This document shows positions 2,458 to 37,529 of a stretch of DNA of 38,441 nucleotides, piece by piece. The position numbers and the translations under genes were made by a program. How positions within the stretch are numbered: the stretch's first letter is position 1; each line of letters opens with the position of its first letter. The notes below the pieces were generated by a model. The model saw only the letters and a program-made list of their open reading frames with translations, was not told the DNA's origin and made no database searches. The stretch comes from an uncultured Bacteroidia bacterium (GTDB lineage: Bacteria > Bacteroidota > Bacteroidia > Bacteroidales > F082), in NCBI GenBank assembly GCA_902770835.1, contig CACXUM010000034.1, forward strand, positions 1 to 38,441, in the 5' to 3' direction.

Positions 2458-2981
2458 AGTGTGTTTGTAAATATCTGATAATGTTATTGTTGCTCGCTTT
2501 TTTTTCATGTGGTGGAAAACCTTCCGGGCAATCGGTAAACGTTTCAAAAAGCGACATGAAAAGCAGCATGGAGAAGGCCAACCGCTATTTGCTGAACGAG
2601 GAAGAGGAAGACATTGAGAACTATATCAAAAGGCACGGCTTGTCCATGACCTCGACGGGAACAGGGCTGAGGTATCAGATTCTGGAACAAGGTTCCGGCC
2701 CATTGATTGAGAAGGGGCAGAGTGTCCGACTTGAATATGTGTTGCATAATATTGCTGGAGAATTGATTTATTCATCTGATAATGATGGTGTTAAAGAATT
2801 TGTTGTTGGGAATGGAAGCGTTGAGTCGGGTCTTGACGAAGCCATGACTTACTTGCATCGAGGAGATGTGGCCAAACTCATCATTCCGTTCCATTTGGGC
2901 TATGGCCTTCATGGCGACGATGATAGGATTCCCGAATACGCAACATTGGTTTATACGATTAAAGTAATAGATAATCAATAA
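2454..2981 (+). CDS. FKBP-type prolyl isomerase lipoprotein, GldI-like
   Basis: A 175-residue predicted lipoprotein: a hydrophobic signal peptide ends in FFSC with the lipidated Cys at residue 19. One FKBP domain follows (about 85-173). It keeps the hydrophobic core and the GYG segment near the C terminus. It lacks the canonical Phe-Asp pair (here IYSSD) and has Leu in place of the active-site Trp (SGLDEA), so catalysis may be weak. Size, lipobox and position right behind nrnA resemble GldI, the gliding-motility/type IX secretion-associated isomerase. Orthology is inferred from context, not proven. It is translationally coupled to nrnA and 3 bp upstream of the next FKBP gene. Confidence 0.8.
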   Translation: MKCVCKYLIMLLLLAFFSCGGKPSGQSVNVSKSDMKSSMEKANRYLLNEEEEDIENYIKRHGLSMTSTGTGLRYQILEQGSGPLIEKGQSVRLEYVLHNIAGELIYSSDNDGVKEFVVGNGSVESGLDEAMTYLHRGDVAKLIIPFHLGYGLHGDDDRIPEYATLVYTIKVIDNQ

Positions 2982-2984
2982 GTT

Positions 2985-4298: not shown

Positions 4299-4325
4299 TC
4301 AATCAACAATTTAATTACACAAAAA

Positions 4326-6562: not shown

Positions 6563-6580
6563 ACTATTTCTTATTGAATG

Positions 6581-6610
6581 AAAAATGCCGCCCAAAAGCG
6601 GCATTTTTTT
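6581..6610. terminator. Bidirectional rho-independent terminator
   Basis: A perfect 11-bp stem pairs 6581-6591 (AAAAATGCCGC) with 6598-6608, around a 6-nt loop. Flanking A and T runs give a U-tract on both strands. It ends the FKBP operon from the left and the polysaccharide operon from the right. Its right arm lies next to the stop codon of the O-antigen ligase-like gene. Confidence 0.9.
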
Positions 6611-8048
6611 ATTTCACTTCATCAAATCCCTCTTTATCAGCATAATAAACATCAATCGAAGCAATCAATGCAGCGAGGCTCCATACGGGGATGGCTAATT
6701 TGTCGGTGTCCATGAAGTTGTTGAGGAAACCGTGGACAAAATAACTGATGAAGGCGAGGGTGGCTCCCAACACTAACACCTTGGCTTTCTTGTTCTTGCA
6801 GCGGTTGTAGGCCATAATGCCGCAATACACCGTTACGATGACAAAGGTCAGCACGAGGAGCGAGCCTACTAAGCCCTGCTCCGCCAACGGGCCGAAATAC
6901 TCGGAGTGGGCATTGCCGCCATCGCCGGCGTTGGTGCTGATGATGGTCTTCTCCTTCGACATTTGGAATGGCGCGTAAACAAACTGGTAAGTGCCAGGTC
7001 CCCAGCCAAATACAGGCCGCTCGTTGAACAATCGGAAAGCCGACTGCCAGCGGTTGATGCGTTCCAAATTGGAGGCATCGGTGGAGATATTGGTGATGGA
7101 TTGGATGTTCTCAACAAGGTCGCCGGAAGCGTCTTGGTTGTTCTTTTCCAAAGTGTCGATGATTTGGTTTTGGAAAGTGAAAAACAGCCCAACCAAAATG
7201 ACCAAAATGGTGGCAATCCAGCGGAACTTGATCTTCAGCAATACGCAGAACAAGACACCCAAGGCGGCAATCATGCTAATCCAAGCCGCGCGGCAGTTGG
7301 AGAGCGTTAGTGCCACGCTCAGCAAAACGACTACACCTATAATAATAAGTTTCCTCGATTTCTTGATGCCGGGCAGGAAAACATAGGTCAGGGCAAGGAT
7401 AAGGTAGATGGCCAAGGCCGCGCCGTAGGCCGTGTGGTCGTTATAGAAAGGCGACATCACCCAGTGCGCCGAGTCGCCGTCGAAGCCGTATTGCGCATGG
7501 TGGACGATGGTGAAAACGCACACGATGCACAGCGCGGCGATGTAAAGCCAAATGAAACGGTGGATGTTTTTCGGCTCCCTGAAGAGCAAGGCGCAAAGGA
7601 AGAAACCCGGAACGACAAACCACAGTCTTGAGGCAATAAACTTAAGCGACACCACGGGCATTTCGCTCGTGATGGTGGTGACCAACATCCAAGCGAACAT
7701 GCAATAGATGACGATGGCGATGGGATGCTGCGAGATGCGCTTGTCGTATCGGCCATCGTATAGCATTTTGGCGATGAAAAGCACCAAAATACCCATTAGT
7801 AGCGGTTCGGCGGGCAGCGAAATGGCCAAACCCGCATCCAAGGAATCCAAATTGATGGAAAGGGGCACGGTGAAAGCCGTGAGCAACAGCACTTTATCCA
7901 ACGAGAAGATGTAGAGCAGCAAAACGCCAAGCACAACGGGCAGGGCAAAAAAGAGGTAGGTGTTCTTCTTTACCACAAGGAACAGCCCAACGGCCACGAA
8001 AAGTGCCGCAATCAGGTAAAGCCAGGCTATTTTCGCTTTTTTCTCCAC
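6609..8048 (-). CDS. O-antigen ligase/polymerase family membrane protein
   Basis: A 479-residue polytopic membrane protein with about a dozen hydrophobic segments. A large loop before the last helices carries the Wzy_C/WaaL-type signature: RINRWQSAFRLF, then FGWGPGTYQF and AHSEYFGPLAEQGLVG. Members either polymerise lipid-linked oligosaccharide units (Wzy) or ligate O-antigen to lipid A-core (WaaL); the sequence alone does not decide. The start is a GTG at 8048, three nucleotides after the stop of the upstream Wzz-like gene, so the two are probably co-translated. It is the last gene of a minus-strand polysaccharide operon. Confidence 0.85.
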   Translation of the reverse strand: MEKKAKIAWLYLIAALFVAVGLFLVVKKNTYLFFALPVVLGVLLLYIFSLDKVLLLTAFTVPLSINLDSLDAGLAISLPAEPLLMGILVLFIAKMLYDGRYDKRISQHPIAIVIYCMFAWMLVTTITSEMPVVSLKFIASRLWFVVPGFFLCALLFREPKNIHRFIWLYIAALCIVCVFTIVHHAQYGFDGDSAHWVMSPFYNDHTAYGAALAIYLILALTYVFLPGIKKSRKLIIIGVVVLLSVALTLSNCRAAWISMIAALGVLFCVLLKIKFRWIATILVILVGLFFTFQNQIIDTLEKNNQDASGDLVENIQSITNISTDASNLERINRWQSAFRLFNERPVFGWGPGTYQFVYAPFQMSKEKTIISTNAGDGGNAHSEYFGPLAEQGLVGSLLVLTFVIVTVYCGIMAYNRCKNKKAKVLVLGATLAFISYFVHGFLNNFMDTDKLAIPVWSLAALIASIDVYYADKEGFDEVK

Positions 8049-8051
8049 AAC

Positions 8052-8987
8052 TTACTTTGTTTCGGGAACGAAACGCTTCCGGTTCTCGATGATGAAGATG
8101 ACAACGATGGAAAGCAACAAGGCTCCCAAGCCGCTCAAAGCGACCACCACCCAGCGCACGGGGAAGGATTTCTTGTCGGCAGGGAAGGGTTCGGTGATGA
8201 TGTTGGAATAAGTGAGGTTGGAGTTGTAGAAACGCAGGTTCTGCTCGTAGTCTCTTTTGATGAGCGAATAGGTATTGGCTTCGGCAATGATTTTGGTTTC
8301 CAAATCGACGGCATCGGCACCGTATTGTTCAAGGTTTTGCTTGAGTTCGTTGGCCTTGTTGGAGCCGTTGATGAAGCCGCGCGTCACTTCGCGGAGTTGG
8401 CCGGAATAATTAAGCACGCCGTAATTGGTGGCGAGGTCGGTAAGGTTCTGTTTAAGCGAATCAATGTCGCGTTGCTTCATTTTGAGTTGCATGTCGTACA
8501 TGTCAACCACTTCGCCAACTTTCTGTTTATGAAGGTTGTGTACCTTTTGGTCATAGAATTTGAGAATATCGTTGGCGATGTTGCAAGCCACGAATGGGTC
8601 TTTGTCCATGACGGTGATGCTGATGGCCTCGTAAGGCGTTTTGCCAATCTTGATTTTGCTGCGATACTCGTTAATCATATAGGTCTTGGCAAACTTGTAA
8701 TTCCTATCGATTTTGTAGTCGGTCCACAAGTCGTGTTTCTCGATGATGGAGTCCATGATTGACCTTGAGTTGATGATTTCGAGCATTTGTTCGGTCTCGC
8801 TTTCATCGGAATAGGGGCTGATGTTGGCGGGATAGGCCACGGCCACCGACTTGTAGAGCGGGGTGATGAACATGGAACTTGAGAAAATGGCGCCGCAAAT
8901 GGCCGCAGCCAAAGTGATGATGATGATGTGCCATTTCCATTTCAGGATGAGTTGCACCAAAGAAAGATTGTTGAAATTGTTATCCAT
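8052..8987 (-). CDS. Wzz-like polysaccharide chain-length determinant
   Basis: A 311-residue inner-membrane protein of polysaccharide co-polymerase type. One transmembrane helix lies near the N terminus (about 18-36) and one near the C terminus (about 277-300). Between them is a periplasmic domain with a central coiled-coil (about 145-225). Conserved Wzz-type features include the FITPLYKS segment after TM1 and the proline-rich FPVRWVV before TM2. No tyrosine-kinase domain is attached. It probably sets chain length for the polymerase encoded just downstream. It is related to the next Wzz-like protein upstream (9043-10110), so the operon carries two. Confidence 0.85.
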   Translation of the reverse strand: MDNNFNNLSLVQLILKWKWHIIIITLAAAICGAIFSSSMFITPLYKSVAVAYPANISPYSDESETEQMLEIINSRSIMDSIIEKHDLWTDYKIDRNYKFAKTYMINEYRSKIKIGKTPYEAISITVMDKDPFVACNIANDILKFYDQKVHNLHKQKVGEVVDMYDMQLKMKQRDIDSLKQNLTDLATNYGVLNYSGQLREVTRGFINGSNKANELKQNLEQYGADAVDLETKIIAEANTYSLIKRDYEQNLRFYNSNLTYSNIITEPFPADKKSFPVRWVVVALSGLGALLLSIVVIFIIENRKRFVPETK

Positions 8988-9042
8988 TGTTGTTTGTGTT
9001 ATTTTCCGATTGATGTTGAAAGGGTTGGTAAATGAGGCTAAT

Positions 9043-10110
9043 TCATTTGTTTTCTTTGTTTTGCGGGGATTTGGCGACCGATTTTTTCTCGGCCTCCCGA
9101 CGAAAAAAGTCTTTTGAGCGGTCGTAGAAGACGATGCAGAAAATGAGCAACAGGAAGGTGCTCAAAACGGTGACTACCACGATAATCCATCGAATGGGGT
9201 AACTCTTGCGCTCGGCTTGGAACGCCGAAGTGACCACAAATTTATGGGGAATGTCTTGCGTGGCGTCCATCTTGGCTTCCTCATATTTCGACTTGACCAA
9301 CGAAAGTTGAAGGCGGTCGTTGTCCAAACGCTCATTGATGGCGTATGACGCGCCGCCGTATTCTGCCAAAATGTCTAATTGTTTCTGTATGTTATTGATT
9401 CCTTGTGTGTTGCCTTTGCCTAATTCAACGGCCATTTGCTGGCTGAGCATTTCCACTTGCGACTCATAATCGAACACACCCAACTTGCGCAAGGTGTTCA
9501 GCGAGTCTTCCAATTGGTGCATTTCGTTCCAAAGCGTGGTGTATTCTTCCTCCACCAATCGGAAAGCCTTCACAGCCACTTCCTTCTGCATTTGGTTCAT
9601 GGTGCTGTCGAAGATTTCCGCGATTTCGTTGGCGATGCGGGCTGAAAGTGCAGCGTCAGAATCCAAAACGGTGATTTTCACGGCATTGTATTCCGTGCGG
9701 CGGAACTTGATGCGAGCGTCGTACAATTTGTTGAGTTTCGTGTAAGGATACTTGCTGTCGGGCTTGATGTTGTAGTGCTCCATCAGGTTGAAGCGGCTGA
9801 TGACCTTGTCGCGCACGCGGTTCGAGTTCAGCACTTGCAACATCTGTTCGGTTTGCTCGTCCTCACCGAAATTCATGATGTCCTTTTCCGATTGGTAAGT
9901 GGTGCTAATCAGCACTTTGGAGATGGAGTTGCTGGAGGTGGGGTAGATGATTGTGGTGGATTTGAAAAGAGGGGTGATGAAGAAAGGTGCGCTGAAAATC
10001 ACGGCGCAGAGGGCGGCCACCGCCAAAATGATGAGGATGGGTTTCCTATATTCCACCAAAAGTTTGCATAAGTATTTGGAATTGTATGTGTTATGTTGCT
10101 GTTCTTCCAT
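9043..10110 (-). CDS. Wzz-like polysaccharide chain-length determinant, second copy
   Basis: A 355-residue protein with the same design as its downstream neighbour: TM1 at about 24-43 followed by FITPLFKST, a long periplasmic coiled-coil region, then YPIRWIIVVVTVLST and TM2 near the C terminus. I start it at the ATG at 10110. A longer in-frame start at 10161 would lie within the promoter (TTG 10159-10161, 19 nt, TATTTTTG 10132-10139). Duplication of the chain-length regulator suggests two modal lengths or a hetero-oligomer; this is inference. Confidence 0.85.
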   Translation of the reverse strand: MEEQQHNTYNSKYLCKLLVEYRKPILIILAVAALCAVIFSAPFFITPLFKSTTIIYPTSSNSISKVLISTTYQSEKDIMNFGEDEQTEQMLQVLNSNRVRDKVISRFNLMEHYNIKPDSKYPYTKLNKLYDARIKFRRTEYNAVKITVLDSDAALSARIANEIAEIFDSTMNQMQKEVAVKAFRLVEEEYTTLWNEMHQLEDSLNTLRKLGVFDYESQVEMLSQQMAVELGKGNTQGINNIQKQLDILAEYGGASYAINERLDNDRLQLSLVKSKYEEAKMDATQDIPHKFVVTSAFQAERKSYPIRWIIVVVTVLSTFLLLIFCIVFYDRSKDFFRREAEKKSVAKSPQNKENK

Positions 10111-10131
10111 AGAATGTGTGAAATAAGTCGT

Positions 10132-10161
10132 CAAAAATAGGGAATTCCCCTGAAATGGCAA
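10132..10161 (-). promoter_or_regulatory. Promoter of the Wzz/ligase operon
   Basis: TTG (10159-10161), then 19 nt, then TATTTTTG (10132-10139) on the minus strand: a full match to the Bacteroidota promoter layout, about 22 bp before the ATG at 10110. It lies just behind the stop of the flippase gene, so the two Wzz genes and the ligase can be transcribed independently of it. Confidence 0.75.
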
Positions 10162-10175
10162 TGAAAAATGTCAAT

Positions 10176-11666
10176 TTAGGCCTTTTTTTCGTGTGGAATG
10201 ACGAGGCTGACAATCTCCTTGAGGCTCAACAAGCGGGTGAGGAAGATGACTCCGCAATTGATGACAAACGCAATGGCGAACCCAATCATCCAATTGACAT
10301 TCAATTGTTTGACAATGAAAGTAATCACGATGACAGAAGCCATGAACAGCACAATGTGAAGCCAATAACGCCCATTGATTTCCAACTTCAGGATGCGTTT
10401 GGCGAGCAGGTATTGCAAGAAAGCGGTTACGGTTTGCACGCAAAGGCTGGTGCAGGCCGCTCCCACCGCCTTGAATCGCGGTATGACGATGAGATTCAGC
10501 AAGATATTGATGATTACGCCCGCAGCTGCCACGAGGTTGAGTTGCTTCAAACTGCCGTTGGCCGTGAGCAATGTGCCGAAAACGTATGTTGTTGAAAGAC
10601 AGAAGAAACTGCCCATCAACAAGGGGAATACGTTGGCATATTGCCCGATACGCAAGAGGTAGGCGGCTTCGGTTTCGGCTTCTTCGGGGTTATACATCAT
10701 TTGCATGATTTCTTGACGATAGAAAACGCACATTATCAGCACGATGCCCGCCATTGCCACGATAACATTAAACGAAGTCTTGACTAAGTTGTTCAAGTCC
10801 GTTTTGTTTTTCAATGTGGCTGCAAACATGGGCAAGAGCATGATTGCGAACAGGTTGGAGATGTTGTTGCCCGCGTCGAAAAGGCGGTAGGCACGGCTGT
10901 ATATCCCGGCTTGCACGCCCTTGTCGTCCAACAGCCTTTCCAAAAGGACGGGTTCGATACGGCTATAGACGCTCATCAGCAACACGAGCAAGGCAAAGGG
11001 CAAACTTTGTCGCAATATCTCCTTGAAAAACCGGAAGTTAATCCTGAAACTGAGGTTTTCGGCATGGCGCAAAACGACGGTCAAGGCGAAGACGAGGGTG
11101 ACAATGTAGGCCACGGTCTGCGCTTGGAGAAACCAGATGACGTTGAACTTTTCCTTCGGGAACCAGCCGCTCCACAGCACGAAACACATCAGGACGATGG
11201 CCAAAACGCGGTCGAAGACGCTCAGGATGCTGTCTTGCTTGAACAAAAGCAAGCCTTGTATGTTCGACCTTAAATATAAGATGAACGAGAGCAGGATTTG
11301 GTTCAGTCCGCACCAGAACAATAGTTTGAGTTTCAGGCCTTCGTTGTAGCCGACGAAGTAGCCCACGACGAAGATGACGAGGGCATAAAGCAGCCCCAGC
11401 AGCAACTTGATTTCGGTGAGGCCTCCGAAGTGCTTGGAAAGGTTTTTCGGGTCTTGTGCGACGCTGCGGCTGTTGAAGTTGGTGATGCCGAGGTCGAGCA
11501 ATATATAAAATAGGTAGGAGAAGTTGAAGATGGCCTGATAGGTGCCGTAGGAAGCGTCGCCAAGCAGGTTTTGCACCTCGCGGTCGATGCCGAGAATCCA
11601 GAACGGCTTCACCAACAGGTTGAGGAACAACAGGAAAATGATATTTTTTATGAAGCGGTTTTGCAT
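10176..11666 (-). CDS. Wzx-like polysaccharide flippase (MOP superfamily)
   Basis: A 496-residue membrane protein with about 12-14 hydrophobic segments, of the MOP flippase/oligosaccharide exporter family. Typical features are the N-terminal FIKNIIFLLFLNLLVKP segment, an early SYLFYILLDLGITNFNSR region, and paired C-terminal helices. Such proteins move undecaprenyl-linked sugar units across the inner membrane, upstream of Wzz/Wzy action, which fits the genes that follow. No glycosyltransferase lies nearby, so the sugar units must be made elsewhere. It starts 6 bp after the DUF1016 gene stop and may be co-transcribed with it. Confidence 0.85.
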   Translation of the reverse strand: MQNRFIKNIIFLLFLNLLVKPFWILGIDREVQNLLGDASYGTYQAIFNFSYLFYILLDLGITNFNSRSVAQDPKNLSKHFGGLTEIKLLLGLLYALVIFVVGYFVGYNEGLKLKLLFWCGLNQILLSFILYLRSNIQGLLLFKQDSILSVFDRVLAIVLMCFVLWSGWFPKEKFNVIWFLQAQTVAYIVTLVFALTVVLRHAENLSFRINFRFFKEILRQSLPFALLVLLMSVYSRIEPVLLERLLDDKGVQAGIYSRAYRLFDAGNNISNLFAIMLLPMFAATLKNKTDLNNLVKTSFNVIVAMAGIVLIMCVFYRQEIMQMMYNPEEAETEAAYLLRIGQYANVFPLLMGSFFCLSTTYVFGTLLTANGSLKQLNLVAAAGVIINILLNLIVIPRFKAVGAACTSLCVQTVTAFLQYLLAKRILKLEINGRYWLHIVLFMASVIVITFIVKQLNVNWMIGFAIAFVINCGVIFLTRLLSLKEIVSLVIPHEKKA

Positions 11667-11672
11667 TTTCGG

Positions 11673-12848
11673 TCAGTTTATATCGTCAGACAGCAGTCTT
11701 TTCAGGTCCTCGATGTCGGGCAGGGCCTTGCGGAGGTTTTCGGGCATGTCGTCAGAGGTTTTGTAGGTGGCCACGCCCATAGGCGCATCATATTTTTGTA
11801 TCACAAATTCAACATACGCTTTATTCATTTCGCGGCACAGAATAATACCTATTGAAGGGTTTTCATTCTTTTTGCGTATGTCAGTATCAAGTATTTGCAA
11901 ATAGGATTGCAACTGGCCCAAATAAGCAGGCTTGAATTTGCCTTTTTTCAATTCAACGGCAACTAAACACGCCAACTCGCGATTATAGAAAAGAAGGTCG
12001 ATAAATTCATTCTCGCCGAATTTCTCCAAGTGATATTGGTTGCCTACAAAAGTGAAGTCCTTGCCAAAAGTCATGATGAAGTTCTTCACGTTTTGTACGA
12101 TGGCGTTTTCCACAACTTTTTCATCAATATCCGCTTCATCCCTTACCCCTAATTCCTCGACATTGACATAATCCAAGAAATATTCATCCTTGAACATCTC
12201 GATGGCCTTTAGTGCTTGTACCCGTTTCGGCAAAGTTTGCAAGAAATTGTTGGGCATGGCCGATTGGTGATGGTACAAGTCTTGTTTCAGCAAATCGCGT
12301 AACCGGTATTTGTCCCACTTGTAGGCTGCGGTATGTCTGATATAGAATAATCGTTCCTCTAAAGTGTCCGTTTTGTTCAGGATTTCCATGTGGTGCGTGA
12401 AGCTGATGGACAAGAAGTCGTGTGCGGTTTGTACATCAAATGCAGTCGATAGGAATTTCGTTTGCAGGATTGGTAGAGCAATTTGGGTAGCCGTTGGCTG
12501 GCGAATTTCATCTTGCACAATTTCAGTTACTTGTATTTCGCCAGCCATCGGCTGGCGAAATACGAATTTGCTCCATTCTTCATAAAATTGGCGCATGTTT
12601 TTTATGTTGGATTCACCGAAACCTCTTAATCCAGGCAATTCTTTCTGCAATTGATCACTAATGGATTTTATTGCACCGCTTCCCCATTTTTGTTTGCGAG
12701 AGTTCTCGGAAATGAACCCGCCCACAGAATAATACAAAGCAAGTACATCGGAATTGACATTCTTCGCAGTGCGTATTTGACTTTGTAAAATGGCGGATTT
12801 AATTACTTGAACCGCTTGGGAAATATGTATGGGTGAATCATTTTCCAT
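11673..12848 (-). CDS. DUF1016/YhcG-family PDDEXK nuclease
   Basis: A 391-residue protein. Residues about 10-90 match the N-terminal DUF1016 (YhcG_N) domain, including LYYSVGGFISE and GFGESNIKNMRQFYEEW. The C-terminal domain (about 215-370) is PDDEXK-like, with FIDLLFYNRELACLVAVELK giving the Asp and Glu-x-Lys of the nuclease core, followed by LGQLQSYLQILD. Function is not established for most members; a role with mobile DNA or defence is often suggested. The linker (about 95-125) contains two RQP(M/T)A repeats, and the first is encoded by a 31-bp near-perfect DNA palindrome. Its position ahead of a polysaccharide flippase is odd and probably incidental. Confidence 0.85.
   Translation of the reverse strand: MENDSPIHISQAVQVIKSAILQSQIRTAKNVNSDVLALYYSVGGFISENSRKQKWGSGAIKSISDQLQKELPGLRGFGESNIKNMRQFYEEWSKFVFRQPMAGEIQVTEIVQDEIRQPTATQIALPILQTKFLSTAFDVQTAHDFLSISFTHHMEILNKTDTLEERLFYIRHTAAYKWDKYRLRDLLKQDLYHHQSAMPNNFLQTLPKRVQALKAIEMFKDEYFLDYVNVEELGVRDEADIDEKVVENAIVQNVKNFIMTFGKDFTFVGNQYHLEKFGENEFIDLLFYNRELACLVAVELKKGKFKPAYLGQLQSYLQILDTDIRKKNENPSIGIILCREMNKAYVEFVIQKYDAPMGVATYKTSDDMPENLRKALPDIEDLKRLLSDDIN
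12533..12563. repeat. Perfect 14-bp-arm palindrome inside the DUF1016 gene
   Basis: GTATTTCGCCAGCC (12533-12546), loop ATC, then its exact complement (12550-12563). On the coding strand it encodes the FRQPMAGEI stretch. A degenerate second copy, with the same GGCTGGCGAA half, lies at 12485-12508. RNA from either strand would fold into a stable hairpin inside the coding sequence. Confidence 0.85.
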
Positions 12849-27740: not shown

Positions 27741-27853
27741 GCCCAGGTGGTGAAATTGGTAGACACGCCACTTTGAGGGGGTGGTGCCGATTACGGCATG
27801 CAAGTTCGACTCTTGTATCGAGAGGTGTGCAGGTTCGACTCCTGTTCGGGGCA
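27741..27853 (+). tRNA. tRNA-Leu(GAG) with duplicated T-arm, possibly defective
   Basis: The 5' half is a normal tRNA-Leu: acceptor GCCCAGG, the D-arm around AAATTGGTAGACAC, anticodon stem CCACT/GGTGG with loop TTGAGGG (anticodon GAG), and a long variable arm (TGCCG-ATTA-CGGCA). A proper T-arm follows (27800-27816), but the next bases (ATCGAGAG) do not pair with the acceptor. A second T-arm lies at 27829-27845, followed by TCGGGGC-A (27846-27853), which does pair with the 5' strand except for one A-G mismatch and a G-U. The total of 113 nt is too long for an ordinary tRNA-Leu. It may be a tRNA altered by integration and excision at its 3' end. Confidence 0.7.
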
Positions 27854-27940: not shown

Positions 27941-28039
27941 TAAAAACCGCCTGCCAACGGATTGACAGACTATAATGCTCCCTAAGATTTAGGCCAAAGG
28001 TTAAAGTGGTTATCTTTGCAGAAACGAAAGGGAAAAAAG

Positions 28040-28558
28040 ATGACCAACACGAAGACAAGGAGCCGCCGGAAGTTCACGGCGGAGTTCAAGGCGAAAGTCG
28101 CCATGGAAGCATTACAGGAGAGACTGACATTGAGCGAGTTGAGCAAGAAGCATGAAGTCCATCCGAATCTGATCACGAAATGGAAGAACCAGCTGAAAGA
28201 GCAAAGCTCGAGCGTTTTCAAGGAACGCGGCGAGGCCGCCGAGAGCGACAAGGACAAGCTCATAGAGCAGCTGTACAAGACCATCGGGTCGTTGACGATG
28301 GACGTGGAGTTCCTAAAAAAACTGTCGCTATTAGCAAGGAAGAGCGCAAGAGGATGGTTTCCAAGGATGAGAAGCTTAGCGTCCGCCGACAATGCGTGCT
28401 GCTCGGCCTGTGCCGTACCTCGTTGTACTACACCGCATCGGAGGAGACGGCGGAGAACCTGGAGGTCATGCGCCTTCTGGACCGGCAATACGCCGTCACG
28501 CCGTTCTACGGCCAGCGCCGCCTTCAGGCGTGGCTCGCCGGGAAGGGATACCGGGTGA
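28040..28558 (+). CDS. IS3-family transposase OrfA
   Basis: Residues about 1-60 form the IS3 helix-turn-helix (RRKFTAEFKAKVAMEAL, then LSELSKKHEVHPNLITKWK), followed by a leucine-zipper-like helix through IEQLYKTIGSLTMDVEFLKK. The sequence CTA-AAA-AAA-CTG at 28313-28324 holds a canonical A-AAA-AAA slippery heptamer (28315-28321), at which a -1 shift would give the OrfAB transposase. In the zero frame translation continues for another 79 codons of Arg-rich, unrelated residues instead of stopping soon after the slippery site. The native OrfA stop may have been lost, or the tail may be harmless. Confidence 0.85.
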   Translation: MTNTKTRSRRKFTAEFKAKVAMEALQERLTLSELSKKHEVHPNLITKWKNQLKEQSSSVFKERGEAAESDKDKLIEQLYKTIGSLTMDVEFLKKLSLLARKSARGWFPRMRSLASADNACCSACAVPRCTTPHRRRRRRTWRSCAFWTGNTPSRRSTASAAFRRGSPGRDTG

Positions 28559-29172
28559 ACATCAAGCGTCTGCGGAGGCTGATGGGGCTGGTCCGATGGA
28601 GGACACTGTTCCCGAAACCCCGCACGACAGCCGCCGACAAGAAGGCATACAAGTACCCGTACCTGCTGAAAGGCCTCGACATAGACCGCCGCAACCAAGT
28701 CTGGGAGCTTGACATCAGCTACATCCCGATGCGACGCGGCTACATGTACCTGTTCGCCATCATAGACGTGTACACGCGCTACGTGGTGGGCTGGAGCCTG
28801 AGCAACACGATGACGGCACAATGGTGCGTCGCGGCGCTCAGGGAAGCCTTCGAGCGCCACGGATGCCCAGAAATCGTCAACAGCGACCAAGGCAGCCAGT
28901 TCACTTCGGCGGACTATGTGGAGCTGTTGGAGGGCAACGGCGTCGCCATCAGTATGGACGGCCGTGGCCGCGCCTTGGACGACATCTTCATCGAGCGGCT
29001 GTGGCGCAGCGTGAAGCAGGAGCACGTGTACCTGAACCCTTGCGAAACGGGCGACGAGCTATGGCTCGGCCTGGACGGATACTTCCGCTTATACAACGAC
29101 GAGAGGCTTCACCAGAGCCTTGGATACAAGACACCCGCAAGCCGCTATCTCCTCCAAAACGAGACGGCTTGA
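28321..29172 (+). CDS. IS3-family transposase OrfB (DDE catalytic domain)
   Basis: A 283-residue frame entered by -1 frameshifting from OrfA. It has the HTH_21-like region (RRLQAWLAGKGYRVNIKRLRRLMG) and an rve integrase core. The catalytic triad is Asp131 (WELDIS), Asp189 (NSDQGSQF) and Glu225 (FIERLWRSVKQE), with exactly 35 residues between the last two as usual for IS3. The C terminus LHQSLGYKTPASRYL is also standard. All catalytic residues are intact, so the element could be active. No separate start codon with a good ribosome-binding site is evident, which supports expression by frameshift. Confidence 0.9.
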   Translation, partial: TVAISKEERKRMVSKDEKLSVRRQCVLLGLCRTSLYYTASEETAENLEVMRLLDRQYAVTPFYGQRRLQAWLAGKGYRVNIKRLRRLMGLVRWRTLFPKPRTTAADKKAYKYPYLLKGLDIDRRNQVWELDISYIPMRRGYMYLFAIIDVYTRYVVGWSLSNTMTAQWCVAALREAFERHGCPEIVNSDQGSQFTSADYVELLEGNGVAISMDGRGRALDDIFIERLWRSVKQEHVYLNPCETGDELWLGLDGYFRLYNDERLHQSLGYKTPASRYLLQNETA

Positions 29173-29199
29173 CACAAAAAGAGACAAAAACACTACCGA

Positions 29200-29337
29200 A
29201 TGAGAAACAATTTGTATATTTGCAACGCCAACCCGCAAACGAAAACCACCTTAACCGCACCTATCTGTGGTTCAAACTTCGGGACGCATTATACTATAAA
29301 AGAACTCATAGATGAGGAGAAAAAGCTGGGAAAGTAG
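29200..29337 (+). other. Possible 3' remnant of an interrupted gene
   Basis: Across the right end of the IS an open frame runs to a TAG at 29335-29337, ending THYTIKELIDEEKKLGK. The last 20 or so codons outside the IS look more protein-like than random sequence. They may be the tail of a gene cut off by the insertion. No matching 5' part is seen on the left side of the IS. It could also be chance. Confidence 0.25.
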
Positions 29338-29379
29338 TTCACGGTTGCTATTTTGGAAGCGATTTGAACTTGTCCCAAA

Positions 29380-29402
29380 TTGTGCAGATGCAATCTGCAC
29401 AA
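29380..29402. promoter_or_regulatory. Palindrome upstream of the NRPS gene
   Basis: TTGTGCAGAT (29380-29389), loop GCA, ATCTGCACAA (29393-29402): a perfect 10-bp-arm inverted repeat. It has no T-run behind it, so it is not a convincing terminator. It lies about 77 bp ahead of the likely -7 element and could be an operator. Confidence 0.5.
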
Positions 29403-29479
29403 ATTATCTTGTCACTCTTGCGCGGCGTTGAAAAAACCGAAATTTCCCCCACCTCACACTTGTTTTCTCCATTTTTTTC

Positions 29480-29527: not shown

Positions 29528-32500
29528 ATGAAAACAACCACTGATGCAACTGCCCCCTTAACAAGATCGCAATATGGCATCTACGCTGAATGTGTAAGCC
29601 ATGAAAACGAGGTTTTCTATAACCTTCCGTTTCTTTTTGTCTTTGACGGCAGCCTCGATGCCGACCGCTTGTGTCGCGCCATCGAGACGACGATCATGGC
29701 GCACCCCACTTTCTTCACACGGATTGGGGTGACCGACGACGGCGAACCCTTCCAGTCCGTGGATATGGAAAAGGAAGACTTCAGCCTTAACGTCGAACAG
29801 GTCTTGGACCTTGAGGCCGAGAAGCAGAAATTCATCGAGCCGTTCAAGCTCTATGGCGGCAGGCTGTTTCATACCAAAGTGATGCGCGACGCGAACCATA
29901 CCTATTGGCTCTTTGATATGCACCATATCATCAGCGACGGCACCTCTTACAATATTATCATTCGCGATGTGGAGACGGCCTACAACGGCGGCACGCTTGC
30001 TCCCGAGGAAATGACGATGCGGGAACTGGCCCACGCCGAAGCCGAGATGCGCAAAACGCCCGCTTTCGAGGAAGGCAAACAATGGTATGCCCAAAACTTC
30101 GATTGCGGCGACACGTTCACCCAACTCATTCCCGACCGCGAAATCCCCGGACAATCGGATGCCCATTTGGACCGTATCCTCAATATCGACATGGATCGGG
30201 TGGATGCCTTCTGCAAGGCCAACGACATCAAAAAAAGTGCCTTTTTCACAGGGGCGTATGCCTACCTGTTGGCCAAATACAACAATGAGCAGGAATCGCT
30301 GTTCAACACGGTTTACAATGGTCGCACCGAGCCCAAGTTCCAACATTCCGTTGGCATGACGGTGAAAACGCTACCCGTTTACTCCAAGTTTACCGACGAC
30401 ACCACCGTGCTTGACTTCCTGAAAGCCAATCAGGAACAGATGGACGGCTGCCGCAAGCACGACATCTATGCCTATTCCGACCTGATGGCCGACCTCAACC
30501 TGCAAAGCAACTCCATCTTTGTGTGGCACGGACTCTTGCTTGATTACACCGAACTGATGGGCAAGCCCATGCAGGCCATACAACTCAGCAAGCACAACGA
30601 GGAAGTGTCGTTTTATCTGATGGCCTTCTATGTCGGCAAACAATATCATATCAGGGCGGAATACAATGCCAACGAATATTCCGAGACGCTGATTGCCCAG
30701 TTTATGGAGAGTTACGAGGCCACCTTGGAAGGCTTTTTGAGCCAAACCAATCTGCGCGACATCGACATCACCACAAAGAGCCAATGCGCCTTGCTTGACA
30801 GTTTCAACCAGACTGATACCGAACTGGACAAGAACGCAACCATCGTTTCCATGTTCCGTGAGCAGGTGGCGAAAACGCCCGACAACATCGCTGTGGTCTA
30901 TAAGGACAAGCGTTTCACCTATCGCGAGTTGGATGAGATTTCCGACCGCATCGCTGCCTATATTCATGGGAAAGGCCTTCAAGCAGAGGATGTCGTTTCC
31001 ATATTGATTCCCCGTTGCGAGTGGATGCCGATTGTCTCCATGGGCGTGTTGAAGGCCGGCTGTGCCTATCAGCCCCTCGACCCGACCTATCCTTCGGAGC
31101 GCCTCAACTTCATGATGCAAGATGCTTCCGTCAAGTTGCTCATCGCCGATGAATCGTTGCGCGACATCGTGAACGAGTACCAAGGCGATGTTCTGCTGAC
31201 GAAAGACATCAACCAACTGCCAACTGCCGACTGCCAACTGCCAACTGTAAATCCGGAGGATTTGTTCATCATGCTTTACACTTCCGGAACTACGGGCACG
31301 CCCAAGGGCTGTCAGTTGGTGCATCGTAACCTTGTCGCATTCTGTGAGTGGTATCACCGCAGGTTTAGCCTAACCTCTGGCTGCAAGGTTACGGCCTATG
31401 CCAGTTTTGGTTTCGATGCCAATATGATGGAAACCTATCCCGCGCTCACATGCGGTGCCACAATCTACATCATCCCTGAAGAACTGCGCTTGGATTTGCT
31501 GGCGTTGAACGAATACTTTGAACAAGAGCAGATTACCCACGGATTCATGACCACGCAAGTGGCCTATCAGTTTGCCACTTCCGTTGAGAACCATTGCCTG
31601 CGCTATCTGTTGACAGGCGGCGAGAAGTTGGCACCGCTGACTCCGCCCACGAATTACACTTTGGCCAACCTTTACGGCCCCACTGAAAGCACCGTTTGCA
31701 TCACCTCCTTCGATGTGACGAAGCCCATGAAGGACATCCCGATTGGCGCGGCTTTGGACAACACCAAACTTTATATTGTCGACAAGGCTGGCCACCGTTT
31801 GCCTGTGGGCGCGGCGGGCGAGCTTTGGGTTGCCGGACCGCAAGTGAGCCGTGGCTACCTCAACCGTCCCGAAAAGACCGCTGAGGTCTATATCGCCAAC
31901 CCCTTCGATACTAACGAAAAATACGCCCACATCTACCGCACTGGCGACATCGTCCGCTATCTCCCTGATGGCAACATCCAGTTTGTGGGACGAAAGGACG
32001 GTCAGGTTAAGATTCGCGGCTTCCGCATCGAGCTTAAGGAAGTTGAAGGTGTCATCCTTCAGTTCCCGGGCATCAAAGACGCCACTGTGCAGGCCTTCGA
32101 CGAAGAAGGTGGCGGCAAGTTCATCGCTGCCTACATCGTTTCGGATGAAGCCGTTGACATTCAAGCGTTGAACGACTTCATCCTTGACCAAAAGCCGCCT
32201 TATATGGTGCCTGCCGTGACGATGCAAATCGACCGCATCCCGCTCAACCAGAACCAGAAGGTGAACAAGAAAGCTCTGCCCAAGCCCGAAAAGAAAGCAG
32301 CCGAGGCAGTGGTGGAGAGCAACGTACCGATGAACCTGTTGGAGCAGGAAATCCATGGCATCATTGCAAAAATCATCAATACCGATGACTTTGGCGTGAC
32401 GACGGTGTTGGGCTATGTCGGCCTCACCTCTATCATGGCCATCAAGTTAGCCATTCAAATCAACAAGCGCTTCGGCGTCACCCTCGACTCGAAATCTTTG

Positions 32501-34678
32501 GCCAAGACGGGCACTTTGCAGACCATCGAGAACGAGATTTTAGCCAAGATGATGAGCGAAGACGCTGGAGAAGAGGCGGTTAAGGAGGAAAAACATGCCG
32601 ACACGAACAATGTTCCGTTGTCATACGCGCAGATGGGCGTTTATGTGGATTGCGTAAAGCAGCCAGAGGCCACCGTTTATAATATCCCGATGGCGGTTCG
32701 TTTCCCCAAGGATGTGGACATCACCCTGCTTACCACGGCATTGGAAACCCTCGTCAAGGCACATCCCCAGATGCGGGCGCATTTTGGAAGTTCGGGTTCC
32801 GACATCATCCAAATCATTGATTTCGACCAACCTATTGAAGTTCTGCACAGCCAGCACAACGAGGCAGAGATGGACCAATACAAACGGGAATTCGTCAAGC
32901 CGTTCAATTTGAGGCAAGGCCCGCTCTACCGCATGGAGATTGTCACCACCGAGCAGTGGGTCTATCTGATGCTCGATTTCCATCATCTCGTCATGGATGG
33001 CGGCTCCTTCGACCTGTTTTTGACCCAACTCTTTGAATTGCTCAACGGTCATGAGATTGAACCCGAATCGTTCACCTACGCTGATTTTGTGGCAGCAGAG
33101 AAGGCCGCCGAAAACAGCCCCGAACACACTGCCGCCAAGGACTTCTTCCAAGAACGTTTGGGCAAGGTGGAGGGCGTGACCGAGGTTCCTTCAGACCTGA
33201 CCAACCCCAAAGAGCAAGGCGTGATAGAAGCCCTGTCGAGTCCGTTGGATTTTGATGCCATTGAGAACTTCTGCCGTCAGCACAATATCACTCCGGCGCA
33301 CCTCACCCTTGCTGCAACCTTCTACGCACTTTCGCGTTTCACCAACAATGAGCAATTGTGCATCACCACCATCAGCAATGGGCGTTCCGACTTGCGCATC
33401 AGCAATACGACAGGTATGTTTGTCAATACTTTGGCATTGAGTTCCACCATCGGCGAACAGACAGTGCTTGAGTTCCTTGACGAGACCAGCAAACAATTCG
33501 ATGAGACGCTGCGGCATGAGAAATATCCTTTCGCGCAAATCGCCAACGACTACGACCTTTCCGCCGAAATCATGTTTGCCTACCAGATGGGCGTTATCGA
33601 AGAGCATAAGTTCAAAGGCCAGACGATTGCCATTGAGAGTATGGAGTCTGACGTGCCCAAGTTCCGCGTCGCTTTTTATATCATGAACGACAAGACGGGC
33701 AAGCCGAGCGTGTGTGTGGAATATGACAATGGCCGCTACAGCCACGATCTGATGCAGACCCTGGCCCAGTCGATTTGCAACGCTGCAAAGGCGTTCATTC
33801 GTCAGCCGGAAATGAAATTGCAGCAGGTGTCGCTGTTGGATGCCGGGCAAACCGAAATCCTCGACAGCTTCAACCAGACCGACGTGCCTTACGACGACAC
33901 CCAGACCATCATCTCGCTGTTCCGCAAGCAAGTGGCCCAAACTCCAGACAACATGGCGGTGGTGTACCTTGACAAGCACTATACTTACAAAGAAGTGGAT
34001 GCCATTTCGGAGCGTATCGCCAATTACCTTGTGAAACAAGGCCTTGGCAACGAGGATGTGGTCTCGGTGCTTATCCCGCGCTGCGAATGGATGGCCATTG
34101 CCTCTTTGGGCGTGCTGAAGGCCGGTTGCGCTTATCAGCCTCTCGACCCGAGTTATCCTGACGAGCGCTTGAACTTCATGATGAAGGATGCCAACGCCAA
34201 GTTGCTCATCGCCGATGAAGAATTGCGTCCCATCGTTGATGAATACCAAGGTGAGGTGCTGCTGACGAAAGACATCGACACCCTGCCTACGGCTGAGCCT
34301 GTAAAGGCCGACATCACGCCTTCGAGCCTCTTTATTATGCTCTATACAAGCGGTTCGACGGGCACGCCCAAGGGCTGCCAATTGGAACACGGCAATTTGG
34401 TGGCTTTCTGCCATTGGTACCAGAGACACTATGGCCTGACTTCCAACGACAAGGTGGCCGCCTACGCCAGTTACGGCTTCGATGCCTGCATGATGGATAT
34501 GTATCCAGCGCTGACATGCGGTGCCTGTGTCTATATCATCGGCGAGGACATCCGCTTGAACTTACCTGATTTGAATGATTACTTCAATTCAAATGGCATA
34601 ACCCATTCATTTATAACGACACAGGTTGGTTACCAGTTCGCGACCAATCTCGGCACTCAACCCGCCGACCAACTATAA
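29528..34678 (+). CDS. Nonribosomal peptide synthetase, C-A-T-C-A(partial), truncated by frameshift
   Basis: A 1716-residue NRPS portion. C1 spans about 1-430 (HHIISDG, His132-Gly138). A1 spans about 445-920 (LYTSGTTGTPKG at 583, NLYGPTE at 714, YRTGD, GRKDGQVKIRGFRIEL, NQNQKVNKK at 907). T1 carries the carrier Ser968 in GLTSIM, a variant of the usual LGGxS. C2 spans about 1040-1450 (HHLVMDG, His1152-Gly1158). A2 starts near 1470 (LYTSGSTGTPKG at 1605). The frame ends abruptly 11 codons after YQFATN, in the middle of A2, because about 47 bp are missing compared with A1. The N-terminal C domain implies that an acyl or aminoacyl donor is condensed first. A 5 x 7-bp repeat lies inside A1. No phosphopantetheinyl transferase is nearby. 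Confidence 0.9.
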   Translation: MKTTTDATAPLTRSQYGIYAECVSHENEVFYNLPFLFVFDGSLDADRLCRAIETTIMAHPTFFTRIGVTDDGEPFQSVDMEKEDFSLNVEQVLDLEAEKQKFIEPFKLYGGRLFHTKVMRDANHTYWLFDMHHIISDGTSYNIIIRDVETAYNGGTLAPEEMTMRELAHAEAEMRKTPAFEEGKQWYAQNFDCGDTFTQLIPDREIPGQSDAHLDRILNIDMDRVDAFCKANDIKKSAFFTGAYAYLLAKYNNEQESLFNTVYNGRTEPKFQHSVGMTVKTLPVYSKFTDDTTVLDFLKANQEQMDGCRKHDIYAYSDLMADLNLQSNSIFVWHGLLLDYTELMGKPMQAIQLSKHNEEVSFYLMAFYVGKQYHIRAEYNANEYSETLIAQFMESYEATLEGFLSQTNLRDIDITTKSQCALLDSFNQTDTELDKNATIVSMFREQVAKTPDNIAVVYKDKRFTYRELDEISDRIAAYIHGKGLQAEDVVSILIPRCEWMPIVSMGVLKAGCAYQPLDPTYPSERLNFMMQDASVKLLIADESLRDIVNEYQGDVLLTKDINQLPTADCQLPTVNPEDLFIMLYTSGTTGTPKGCQLVHRNLVAFCEWYHRRFSLTSGCKVTAYASFGFDANMMETYPALTCGATIYIIPEELRLDLLALNEYFEQEQITHGFMTTQVAYQFATSVENHCLRYLLTGGEKLAPLTPPTNYTLANLYGPTESTVCITSFDVTKPMKDIPIGAALDNTKLYIVDKAGHRLPVGAAGELWVAGPQVSRGYLNRPEKTAEVYIANPFDTNEKYAHIYRTGDIVRYLPDGNIQFVGRKDGQVKIRGFRIELKEVEGVILQFPGIKDATVQAFDEEGGGKFIAAYIVSDEAVDIQALNDFILDQKPPYMVPAVTMQIDRIPLNQNQKVNKKALPKPEKKAAEAVVESNVPMNLLEQEIHGIIAKIINTDDFGVTTVLGYVGLTSIMAIKLAIQINKRFGVTLDSKSLAKTGTLQTIENEILAKMMSEDAGEEAVKEEKHADTNNVPLSYAQMGVYVDCVKQPEATVYNIPMAVRFPKDVDITLLTTALETLVKAHPQMRAHFGSSGSDIIQIIDFDQPIEVLHSQHNEAEMDQYKREFVKPFNLRQGPLYRMEIVTTEQWVYLMLDFHHLVMDGGSFDLFLTQLFELLNGHEIEPESFTYADFVAAEKAAENSPEHTAAKDFFQERLGKVEGVTEVPSDLTNPKEQGVIEALSSPLDFDAIENFCRQHNITPAHLTLAATFYALSRFTNNEQLCITTISNGRSDLRISNTTGMFVNTLALSSTIGEQTVLEFLDETSKQFDETLRHEKYPFAQIANDYDLSAEIMFAYQMGVIEEHKFKGQTIAIESMESDVPKFRVAFYIMNDKTGKPSVCVEYDNGRYSHDLMQTLAQSICNAAKAFIRQPEMKLQQVSLLDAGQTEILDSFNQTDVPYDDTQTIISLFRKQVAQTPDNMAVVYLDKHYTYKEVDAISERIANYLVKQGLGNEDVVSVLIPRCEWMAIASLGVLKAGCAYQPLDPSYPDERLNFMMKDANAKLLIADEELRPIVDEYQGEVLLTKDIDTLPTAEPVKADITPSSLFIMLYTSGSTGTPKGCQLEHGNLVAFCHWYQRHYGLTSNDKVAAYASYGFDACMMDMYPALTCGACVYIIGEDIRLNLPDLNDYFNSNGITHSFITTQVGYQFATNLGTQPADQL
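31213..31247 (+). repeat. Five tandem heptamers inside the A1 domain
   Basis: CCAACTG, CCAACTG, CCGACTG, CCAACTG and CCAACTG follow head to tail. They encode the linker QLPTADCQLPTV just ahead of the A3 core motif. The paralogous A2 domain has a non-repetitive linker of the same length (TLPTAEPVKADIT), so the array was probably acquired or amplified in place without changing the frame. Confidence 0.9.
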
Positions 34679-36758
34679 GATGTACAACGGCTATGGTCCG
34701 ACGGAATGTACCATTTTCACCACAAATTACTGGGTGAAGGATTACGAATTGGACATCCCCATCGGCAAGCCGTTAGACAATCTGAGACTCTATATCGTTG
34801 ACAAGCAATTCAACAGACTTCCCATCGGCGCCATGGGCGAGTTGTGGGTCACGGGACCGCAAGTGAGCCGTGGCTATCTGAACCGTCCCGAAAAGACTGC
34901 CGAGACCTATATAAAGAATCCTTTCAGCGACGACCCGAAGCACAGTCGTGTGTATCGCACTGGCGACATCGTGCGTTACCTCCCAGATGGCAACATCCAG
35001 TTTGTGGGTCGTAAAGACGGTCAGGTGAAGATTCGTGGTTTCCGCATCGAATTGAAGGAAGTCGAGGCCGTCATCCGACAATTCCCGGGCATCAAGGATG
35101 CTACCGTGCAAGACTTTGAGTATGAGAACGGTGGGAAGTACATCGCCGCCTACATCGTCAGCGACGAGAAGGTGGACATCAAGGCACTGAACGCCTTCAT
35201 CGGGCAGCAGAAACCGCCTTATATGATTCCTGCCGCCACGATGCAAATCGACGCCATCCCGCTCAACCAGAACCAGAAGGTGAACCGAAAAGCATTGCCT
35301 GCTCCTGTCATTCAGACTGCCGACCACGAGTATGTGGAGCCTGCCAACGAGGTCGAGAGGCTGTTCTGCAAGATTTACAGCGACATTTTGTCGATGGACA
35401 AGATTGGCGCGACCGACAACTTCTTCGAGTTGGGCGGCACCTCGCTCATGGTGACCCGCGTCATCATCGAGGCCGACAAGGCCGGTCATCATATCGCTTA
35501 CGGCGATGTGTTCGCCAACCCGACACCGCGAATGTTGGCCAACTTCCTCACCGGCGGCACCGTCGACGAGGACGAGGAGGCCCGCAACTACAACTATGGT
35601 CCCGTCAACCGCATCCTTGAAGGCAACACCCTCGACGCTTTCCGCAACGGCGAGCGTCAAACCATTGGGAATGTGCTGCTTACGGGAGCCACAGGCTTCT
35701 TGGGCATCCATATCCTCAAGGAACTCATCGACCGCGAGGATGTGCCTGTCATTTGGTGTATGGTGAGAGCCGAGAACGAGGAAAAGGCCGAGCGTCGACT
35801 GAAAGGGATGTTGTATTACTACTTCAGCCACAACTATAACGAGTTGTTTGGTAGTCGTTTGCGTGTCATCAATGGCGATGTGACCCAAGAAATCAAGGTG
35901 GATGGCAAAGTCGATACCGTTTTCAATTGCGCTGCCGTGGTGAAGCACTTCTCCAAAGGCACCGAGATTGAGGATGTCAATGTGGGCGGCGCGGCACACT
36001 GCGTCAAATTCTGCCTGCTGAACAACGCCCGACTGATTCATGTTTCCACCTACAGCACCGCTGGAATGTCCATCAATGGGATGCCGCCAGAGGATACGGT
36101 TTATACGGAGCAAAAACTCTATTTCGGCCAGAACCTTGACAACCAATACGTACACTCGAAATTTATCTCCGAGCGTATCGTGCTGGATGCCGTGGCCTTG
36201 CACAAGTTGAACGCCAAGGTGATGCGTGTGGGCAATCTTGCGCCGCGTTCCACCGATGGAGAGTTCCAGATCAACTTCCAGACCAACAGTGCGATGGGTC
36301 GTATCAGGGTGTATCAAATGTTGGGCTGCTATCCATACGATTTGACTGACGCGCCGATGGAGTTCTCACCCATCAACGAGGTCGCCAAGGCCATCGTGAC
36401 GCTTTCGGAAACGCCGCAATCGTGCTGCCTGTTCCATCCTTACAACAACCACTATGTCCACTTCGGTGACGTTTTGGAGGAACTTTCAAAGGTCACTCAG
36501 GGTCCGCGTCAGGTGGAGGCCGAGGCCTTCAACGAGGCTTTGGAAACCGCCAAGCAAGACCCCGAAAAGGCCAAGCGCCTTTCCAGTCTGCTGGCCTACC
36601 AAGACATGGCACACGGACAAAAGGCTATGATGATTCTCGCCGATAACCAATACACTTCACAAGTGTTGTATCGCCTTGGGTTCCGCTGGTCGAGCACTTC
36701 GTGGGATTATGTTGATCAGATGCTGAAGGCCATTGCCGGGTTTGGGTATTTTGAATAA
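34626..36758 (+). CDS. NRPS C-terminal part: A2(rest)-T-reductase, separate frame
   Basis: A 710-residue frame continuing the NRPS in a different phase. It begins inside A2 with NPPTNYKMYNGYGPTE and runs through A7-A10. T2 has the standard FFELGGTSLM with Ser273 as carrier site. A thioester reductase domain (about 345-710) follows: NADPH loop LLTGATGFLG (351-360), a catalytic Tyr508-x-x-x-Lys512 (YVHSK) and VSTYSTAG. The reductase would release the peptide as an aldehyde (or alcohol) instead of hydrolysing it. The ATG at 34626 is only where the frame opens, and M at 34680 is equally possible. Neither has evident translation signals, so as it stands this is probably not made as a working protein. 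Confidence 0.85.
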   Translation: MVTSSRPISALNPPTNYKMYNGYGPTECTIFTTNYWVKDYELDIPIGKPLDNLRLYIVDKQFNRLPIGAMGELWVTGPQVSRGYLNRPEKTAETYIKNPFSDDPKHSRVYRTGDIVRYLPDGNIQFVGRKDGQVKIRGFRIELKEVEAVIRQFPGIKDATVQDFEYENGGKYIAAYIVSDEKVDIKALNAFIGQQKPPYMIPAATMQIDAIPLNQNQKVNRKALPAPVIQTADHEYVEPANEVERLFCKIYSDILSMDKIGATDNFFELGGTSLMVTRVIIEADKAGHHIAYGDVFANPTPRMLANFLTGGTVDEDEEARNYNYGPVNRILEGNTLDAFRNGERQTIGNVLLTGATGFLGIHILKELIDREDVPVIWCMVRAENEEKAERRLKGMLYYYFSHNYNELFGSRLRVINGDVTQEIKVDGKVDTVFNCAAVVKHFSKGTEIEDVNVGGAAHCVKFCLLNNARLIHVSTYSTAGMSINGMPPEDTVYTEQKLYFGQNLDNQYVHSKFISERIVLDAVALHKLNAKVMRVGNLAPRSTDGEFQINFQTNSAMGRIRVYQMLGCYPYDLTDAPMEFSPINEVAKAIVTLSETPQSCCLFHPYNNHYVHFGDVLEELSKVTQGPRQVEAEAFNEALETAKQDPEKAKRLSSLLAYQDMAHGQKAMMILADNQYTSQVLYRLGFRWSSTSWDYVDQMLKAIAGFGYFE

Positions 36759-36815: not shown

Positions 36816-37529
36816 TTATCTTACAAGATAAATCACCAACATGTGAAGCGGATAAAACGCATAGAAGAAATACTTCCAAAATATCGACTTGATAAACCCG
36901 CGTTCCCCATTGTATAGGCAGGTCAGCAGTAACGACATAAAAACCATTGCCTTCATGGAAAGTAACACGGGTGCAACGATACATTGAATGACTTTTTCTT
37001 TTCTTAAACCATACATTAGCAAGATAAATACAAAGCCTGCTGTTTGGTAGTCGGCGTGCATATACCTAGTAATCAAAAACATAATTAGTAATATCACCAT
37101 GCTTAGGATAGGCTTATTTTTGAAGTGTTCCAGACAGCACATCGCAAGGTAACCTAAAAGCAAAGTGAACATAACGTTCTGTTTTGCAAACAACAATGCA
37201 CCACCATTCATCAGATTGAATGGAATTTCGGAAAGCAAAGCCAAAACAAACAGGTTTAGGCCATATTTTTTCCTGTTTCTTGTATTCAAAAAGCCCTAGA
37301 CCAATAAGAAAACGAAAATAGGAAAGGCAAACCTCCCGAACATCAACATTAGTTGCATCAGTGATATTGGTTTTCCCGCAAAACTAAACCAAACACTGTT
37401 AACCCATGTAGTTTTTTGGAAATAGAATTTTGCGAAATGGTCAGCAAGCATTGAGATACATGCGATTACTTTCAATGCGCTGCCACTGAGTATTTTAATT
37501 CGACTTGGCAAAAGGATTTGTGTATCCAT
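36816..37529 (-). pseudogene. TraX-family membrane protein with in-frame TAG
   Basis: A 237-codon frame for a TraX-like polytopic membrane protein (relatives of the F-pilin acetylase; role in chromosomal copies unknown). The N-terminal part SGSALKVIACISMLADHFAKF continues to FGRFAFPIFVFLLV. A TAG (37296-37298) follows, and the same frame continues GFLNTRNRKKYGLNLFVLALLSEIPFNL to a TAA. TraX relatives have Glu at or near this place, so a GAG-to-TAG change is likely. There is no frameshift and the rest looks undamaged, so the lesion is recent or a sequencing error. The gene starts 1 bp after the LolA-like gene stop and is its operon partner. Confidence 0.75.

Follow-up and report, generated by a model that had tools for sequence, protein, structure and literature searches.

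N-acyl dipeptide aldehydes have precedents in the gut: a Clostridium nonribosomal peptide synthetase (NRPS) cluster is reported to yield N-octanoyl-Met-Phe-H (PMC8518294), ruminopeptin is described as another such compound (PMC12327764), and the known gut representatives are described in these two sources as protease inhibitors. The products of the Staphylococcus enzyme AusA are described as pyrazinones (PMC8210680), and in Methanobrevibacter ruminantium M1 two NRPSs (mru0068 and mru0351) are described beside a serine phosphatase and an anti-sigma factor antagonist, with a MatE gene by one of them (PMC2812497). In the rumen, a survey reports 5,346 NRPS clusters in 8,160 genomes, 934 of the clusters in Bacteroidaceae (PMC8241843). 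Here we analysed contig CACXUM010000034.1 of an uncultured Bacteroidia bacterium (Bacteroidales, F082; assembly GCA_902770835.1), positions 1-38,441; these 38,441 nt are hereafter the window. Two adjacent frames in it encode a dimodular NRPS with a terminal reductase. We read the two frames as one gene that has been interrupted, and propose, with a probability of about 0.6, that its intact relatives make an N-acyl dipeptide aldehyde. The enzyme is of a known kind; it is the apparent exchange of modules among its relatives and the set of genes that accompanies them that are of interest.

Frame 1 (29528..34678, 1716 aa; like all NRPS features, on the forward strand) begins with a condensation domain, C1 (29549..30775; PF00668, 197.5 bits), in which HHIISDG is read. 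This is followed by the adenylation domain A1 with its C-terminal subdomain (30854..32260; ten-residue code DAMFLGLVCK), the carrier T1 (32348..32530, serine in GLTSI), a second condensation domain, C2 (32606..33856; 220.8 bits, HHLVMDG), and the N-terminal part of a second adenylation domain, A2 (33899..34651, edges estimated; first four code positions DAMF). Frame 2 (34626..36758, 710 aa from a TTG whose role as the real start we doubt) holds the C-terminal part of A2, the carrier T2 (35367..35549, ELGGTSL) and a terminal thioester reductase, or R domain (35658..36755; NAD_binding_4 and TIGR01746), with GATGFLG, HVSTYSTAG and YVHSK. In Pfam terms, frame 1 matches Condensation and AMP-binding twice each and PP-binding and AMP-binding_C once each, and frame 2 matches the tail of AMP-binding (profile positions 313-384), AMP-binding_C, PP-binding and NAD_binding_4. 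E-values across both frames range from 1.1e-134 to 9.5e-06 and every match exceeds its curated cut-off, so the matches are far beyond chance; the reductase scores 157.3 bits against TIGR01746, under that model's cut-off of 213.35. The Pfam order across 29528-34678 and 34626-36758 agrees with the C-A-T-C-A-T-R layout of the original prediction, whose terminal reductase and two C domains were all recovered by domain annotation. The active-site motifs that it had named, both HHxxxDG, both carrier serines and the reductase Tyr-x-x-x-Lys, were read as well, and those of the C, T and R domains are thus all present in the window copy.

Relatives were sought among genome contigs with the second frame (the A2 C-terminal part, T2 and R) as query, which gave at least 594 stretches, at least 584 of them from relatives; the best 80 of the latter are the loci behind all 80-locus counts. 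L-numbers below denote loci (mostly those of relatives), G-numbers genomes, and C-numbers, where we write contig C2, C6 or C47, contigs of the window's own genome. The locus titles name Bacteroidales and kin, and the host animal, where given, is a ruminant; RUG in the record titles presumably stands for rumen genomes. Among 63 long frames from relatives, over which motif conservation was scored, the C2 HHxxxDG, both carrier serines and the reductase Tyr-x-x-x-Lys are each kept in 63/63. The ten pocket positions of the A domains follow what we take to be the GrsA residue numbering, and in 60 two-module frames they give 31 distinct A1 codes and 11 distinct A2 codes, the lower A2 diversity being partly selection, as the query choice biases the set of relatives. 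In the window's own A2 code, the two positions lost at the break described below were filled by out-of-frame residues. The relatives at L060, L062 and L063 are longer, at about 3000 aa, and have three A domains.

The domain order suggests how the intact enzymes would work. C1 would join an acyl group to the amino acid on T1, which A1, with a nonpolar pocket, would supply; C2 would couple this acylated residue to the residue on T2, supplied by A2, whose pocket also appears nonpolar; and the R domain would use NAD(P)H to release the chain as an aldehyde that could trap cysteine or serine proteases. A pyrazinone can form only from a free amine, as acylation of the amine prevents ring closure; since the leading C domain suggests N-acylation, a pyrazinone is disfavoured. 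The contrary possibility, that a free-amine dipeptide aldehyde becomes a pyrazinone, as with AusA, and that C1 is inactive or otherwise used, we consider unlikely. Among the named NCBIfam models for reductase NRPSs of that layout, the AusA model (NF047350) scores best, with 717.3 and 453.7 bits on the two window pieces, yet far under its cut-off of 2500. The closest PDB match of the R domain is 6vtj (215 bits), which is described as an M. ruminantium NRPS (PMC8097023), and the AusA R domain, 4f6c, comes second (133 bits). Gut dipeptide aldehydes are also reported to have been isolated as pyrazinones (PMC12327764), but C1 appears active, since the window has HHIISDG and HHxxxDG is kept by 52 of the 63 long frames. 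Of the original assignment as a dipeptide-aldehyde synthase, therefore, the synthase part holds, supported by the C-A-T-C-A-T-R order and a reductase whose relatives among solved structures are NRPS reductases, and the suggested pyrazinone product sits poorly with the leading C domain.

We count the presence of an Sfp-like phosphopantetheinyl transferase (PPTase) in the same genome, described below, as further support for an N-acyl dipeptide aldehyde. Several observations weigh against that reading. The C1 HHxxxDG is missing from 11/63 long frames, although in 8 of these there are gaps only. With PDB profiles at E 1e-5, 7c1h, 7c1k and 7c1p, which we take to be rhizomide starter domains, were matched by a C1 of type b and by C2, not by the C1 type of the window. 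The R domain could in principle reduce its product to the alcohol instead. Lastly, L003, the closest intact copy, has none of the accompanying genes nearby in the 48-locus neighbour count given below. A further structure, 8f7f, had been considered as a starter domain and was dropped, as its listing in PMC11142918 does not say so.

The interruption lies at 34647..34652, where 47 nt of A2 that are present in 12/12 aligned relatives (picked from the 80 loci) are absent, so that the second A domain is incomplete in the window. This absence, together with the single frame of L003, leads us to treat the two frames as one gene. A search for intact orthologues, as the original prediction had proposed, found that L003 (2431 aa; 96% identical to frame 1 over residues 1-1708 and 95% to frame 2), L005 (2452 aa) and L010 each span both window frames with a single open frame. 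Against L003 and L005, the window pieces give gap-free alignments over 1708 and 703 codons, with a ratio of nonsynonymous to synonymous substitution rates (dN/dS) of about 0.05-0.08; purifying selection on this NRPS is strong, and such alignment outside the gap indicates that the interruption either arose recently or is not genuine. Because A2 is incomplete, with two of its ten pocket positions lost, the window copy as assembled is unlikely to make any product.

A genuine, working two-protein synthetase would account for both frames being open and for the low dN/dS of both pieces. However, a split inside A2 drops residues, the two pocket positions among them, frame 2 offers only a TTG start that overlaps frame 1, and the split is common to 0/12 of the aligned relatives; we rejected this arrangement as highly improbable. 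Programmed ribosomal frameshifting was rejected too, as it would not restore the missing 47 nt. The 47-nt deletion would instead have arisen by recent mutation or, with roughly equal likelihood, as a fault of the assembly. That the deletion is real and fixed in the strain, leaving a true pseudogene, has a probability just short of even. In support of this, the gap edges are ambiguous by up to 5 nt among seven relatives checked, with the full 5 nt in three of them, which fits replication slippage, and an insertion sequence (IS) lies upstream. Further, L016, L022, L066 and L074 (the last from a named strain), among the 80 loci, and a second copy in G059 are also in two frames, broken elsewhere in the gene, which makes true breaks in this NRPS family plausible. 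Against a pseudogene stand the lack of further decay in the aligned pieces and a deletion cutting two tRNA genes on the same contig, which hints at assembly trouble.

That deletion is found at 27816, within the remnant of a tandem tRNA-Leu(GAG)/tRNA-Leu(CAG) pair (27741..27853, forward strand). The Rfam tRNA match here is a fusion of two tRNAs that stand in tandem in relatives, and about 63 nt that include parts of both genes are gone. Up to 27816, the left arm of the window is 97-98% identical to L120 and L122, where it continues into both tRNAs. ARAGORN finds no tRNA in the window; on 13 loci of relatives it finds both in 8, one in 4 (of which L104 and L108 end at that spot) and none in one (L107). 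When the window's own genome was searched with a query of 2510 bases that includes the second tRNA, the only match was the 39-nt remnant in the window. We judge it less likely that a living cell lost both tRNAs than that the assembly is at fault, and the NRPS break may be another such fault. The window is not the only case of small losses here, since gaps of 15-16 nt occur within the tRNA-Leu pair in L099 and L100; either drafts of this kind tend to be misassembled at this spot, or loss is tolerated there. These gaps in two relatives slightly lower the reading that we favour and raise that of a true pseudogene. Position 27816 had also looked like the integration edge of a tRNA-borne element, a candidate rejected on the same comparison, which revealed the deletion joining the tandem tRNAs; the rejection covers the edge at 27816, not an element beginning after 27854.

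The IS between this remnant and the NRPS (27970..29288, forward strand, edges estimated by eye from terminal inverted repeats) has a transposase frame at 28180-29172 with rve and HTH_21 domains and appears to be IS3-like. Hence the NRPS does lie next to an IS, as originally described, but the tRNA placed beside it is a fused remnant. Contig C47 of the same genome carries, in order, a gene that we name mnmE from its sequence, a sensor gene, two other frames, a STAS-like frame, a gene for a barrel-like protein and the start of an IS, at which the contig ends. What the contig keeps of this IS is its first 326 nt (L092 1-326), which are 94% identical to the window IS. To the right of the window IS, the DNA (29296-29405) is a 91% match to a stretch of another genome (L110) that lies downstream of the barrel gene there, at a distance of about 535 bp. 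In G065, one contig carries both the barrel and an NRPS, and the DUF4301 gene found in the left arm of the window is on another. Because of these three comparisons, we consider the left side of the window to be either an IS-mediated rearrangement or a mis-join, and the two IS3-like copies, one after the barrel on contig C47 and one before the NRPS, a likely point of assembly or recombination. The NRPS thus probably belongs to a genus locus of the order mnmE-sensor-STAS-barrel-NRPS whose left side was replaced or mis-joined at the IS3-like copy. A gene may be missing between contig C47 and the window, since at L124 (G059) another NRPS stretch, in broken frames, lies upstream of the window-like NRPS, and L011, L016 and L017 have two NRPSs each. 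On L092, in the cassette of the window's own genome, a 1252-aa frame (2247-6005) stands between the sensor and the STAS-like frame; L012 and L015, whose cassettes are shorter, lack it.

The neighbouring genes recur in relatives. When the flanking frames of the loci were grouped by single-linkage clustering, the recurrent neighbours were a sensor phosphatase (42 loci), the barrel-like protein (30), a STAS protein (25), a PPTase (10) and a MatE protein (7, including that of contig C6); we refer to these together as the cassette. At least one cassette gene lies upstream on the same strand in 32 of the 48 loci (out of 80) with at least 4.5 kb of upstream sequence (sensor 28, barrel 21, STAS 16, PPTase 5, MatE 0), and on either side or strand in 39/48, leaving 9/48 with none. 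One representative of each matched in Pfam as PDC/Cache, SpoIIE and HATPase_c_2 (sensor), STAS, ACPS superfamily (PPTase, as well as the genome's own) and MatE (likewise with the genome's own); the barrel representative reached 21.5 bits against Alginate_exp, under the cut-off of 25.2. From these gene neighbourhoods, reductase NRPSs often seem to lie beside a possible signal switch and a possible export pore. At L074, the NRPS homologue of Phocaeicola barnesiae DSM 18169 (4835-12097), in two frames parted by a stop codon, has a STAS-cluster frame before it and MatE- and PPTase-cluster frames after it.

In the window's own genome, Condensation matches occur at two places, the window NRPS and contig C6, where a single open frame of 2485 aa with two Condensation matches and one reductase match follows a MatE gene. 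One ACPS-superfamily PPTase gene is found on contig C2, and its motifs look Sfp-like. The first description of the NRPS as standing alone, without tailoring, transport or PPTase genes, is true of the contig, on which no tailoring genes were seen among the 10 scanned context frames, but is misleading for the genome, given the second NRPS with MatE (contig C6), the PPTase (contig C2) and the cassette (contig C47). The NRPS is directly followed by a TraX-family frame (36816..37289, reverse strand) that clusters with downstream frames of six relatives.

Within one and the same protein, identity to the window can change sharply from domain to domain. At L007, L012, L013 and L015, C1 is 33-34% and R 89-90% identical to the window; at L034, L037, L040 and L058, C1 and A1 reach 81-95% and R only 60-61%; and at L009 and L078, C1 is 87%, C2 67% and the C-terminal part of A2 96% identical. 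Module exchange would explain these comparisons better than uniform drift. The low-C1, high-R pattern of the L007 group could have been helped by the query choice; the other two hardly.

Within the genus, 25/99 genomes, the own one included, have a reductase match at E 1e-20 or better, and in 19 of the 25 the best match is at least 88% identical; G011, G067, G012 and G060 hold more distant homologues only, and G007 and G064 only fragments. In the family search of 173 genomes, no such match was found in the 74 genomes outside the genus, where the weaker matches (best 1.7e-13) look like other short-chain dehydrogenase/reductase (SDR) proteins. Across the order, 10/393 genomes of a spread sample match at E 1e-30, the own one included, with at most five candidates scored per genome. 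Rarity in Bacteroidales, as first claimed, therefore holds for the order and not for the genus.

Peptide aldehydes inhibit proteases, and the NRPSs of a quarter of this genus, with their neighbours, offer testable genes behind many anonymous rumen NRPS clusters. A cluster that appears lone and broken in a draft genome may owe this appearance partly to IS repeats and to small deletions introduced in assembly. In the open-access literature searched, we found no description of this reductase NRPS family with its cassette. The synthases of Clostridium (BGC0001686) and of Ruminococcus (ruminopeptin), whose layout we take to be C-A-T-C-A-T-R, resemble it in gut setting and product logic; here, the host is one of the Bacteroidales and the window copy is broken. 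Staphylococcus AusA/PznA (aureusimine) is likewise dimodular with a terminal reductase, and its profile matches much of both frames, yet the scores lie far under the NF047350 cut-off, and AusA leads to pyrazinones whereas the leading C1 here suggests acylation. M. ruminantium M1 has the NRPS R domain nearest to ours in the PDB and, going by published descriptions of its genes, similar kinds of neighbours, although its NRPSs are archaeal and that of the window is bacterial. We tentatively suggest, as an idea with the odds against it, that rumen Bacteroidales keep module-swapping reductase NRPSs under partner switching, by a PDC sensor-SpoIIE phosphatase-HATPase protein and a STAS protein, with a dedicated outer-membrane barrel letting the aldehyde out; as the NRPSs of one rumen methanogen are accompanied by a similar kind of control cassette, a protease-inhibitor system might, together with its switch, have been transferred between domains of life in the rumen.

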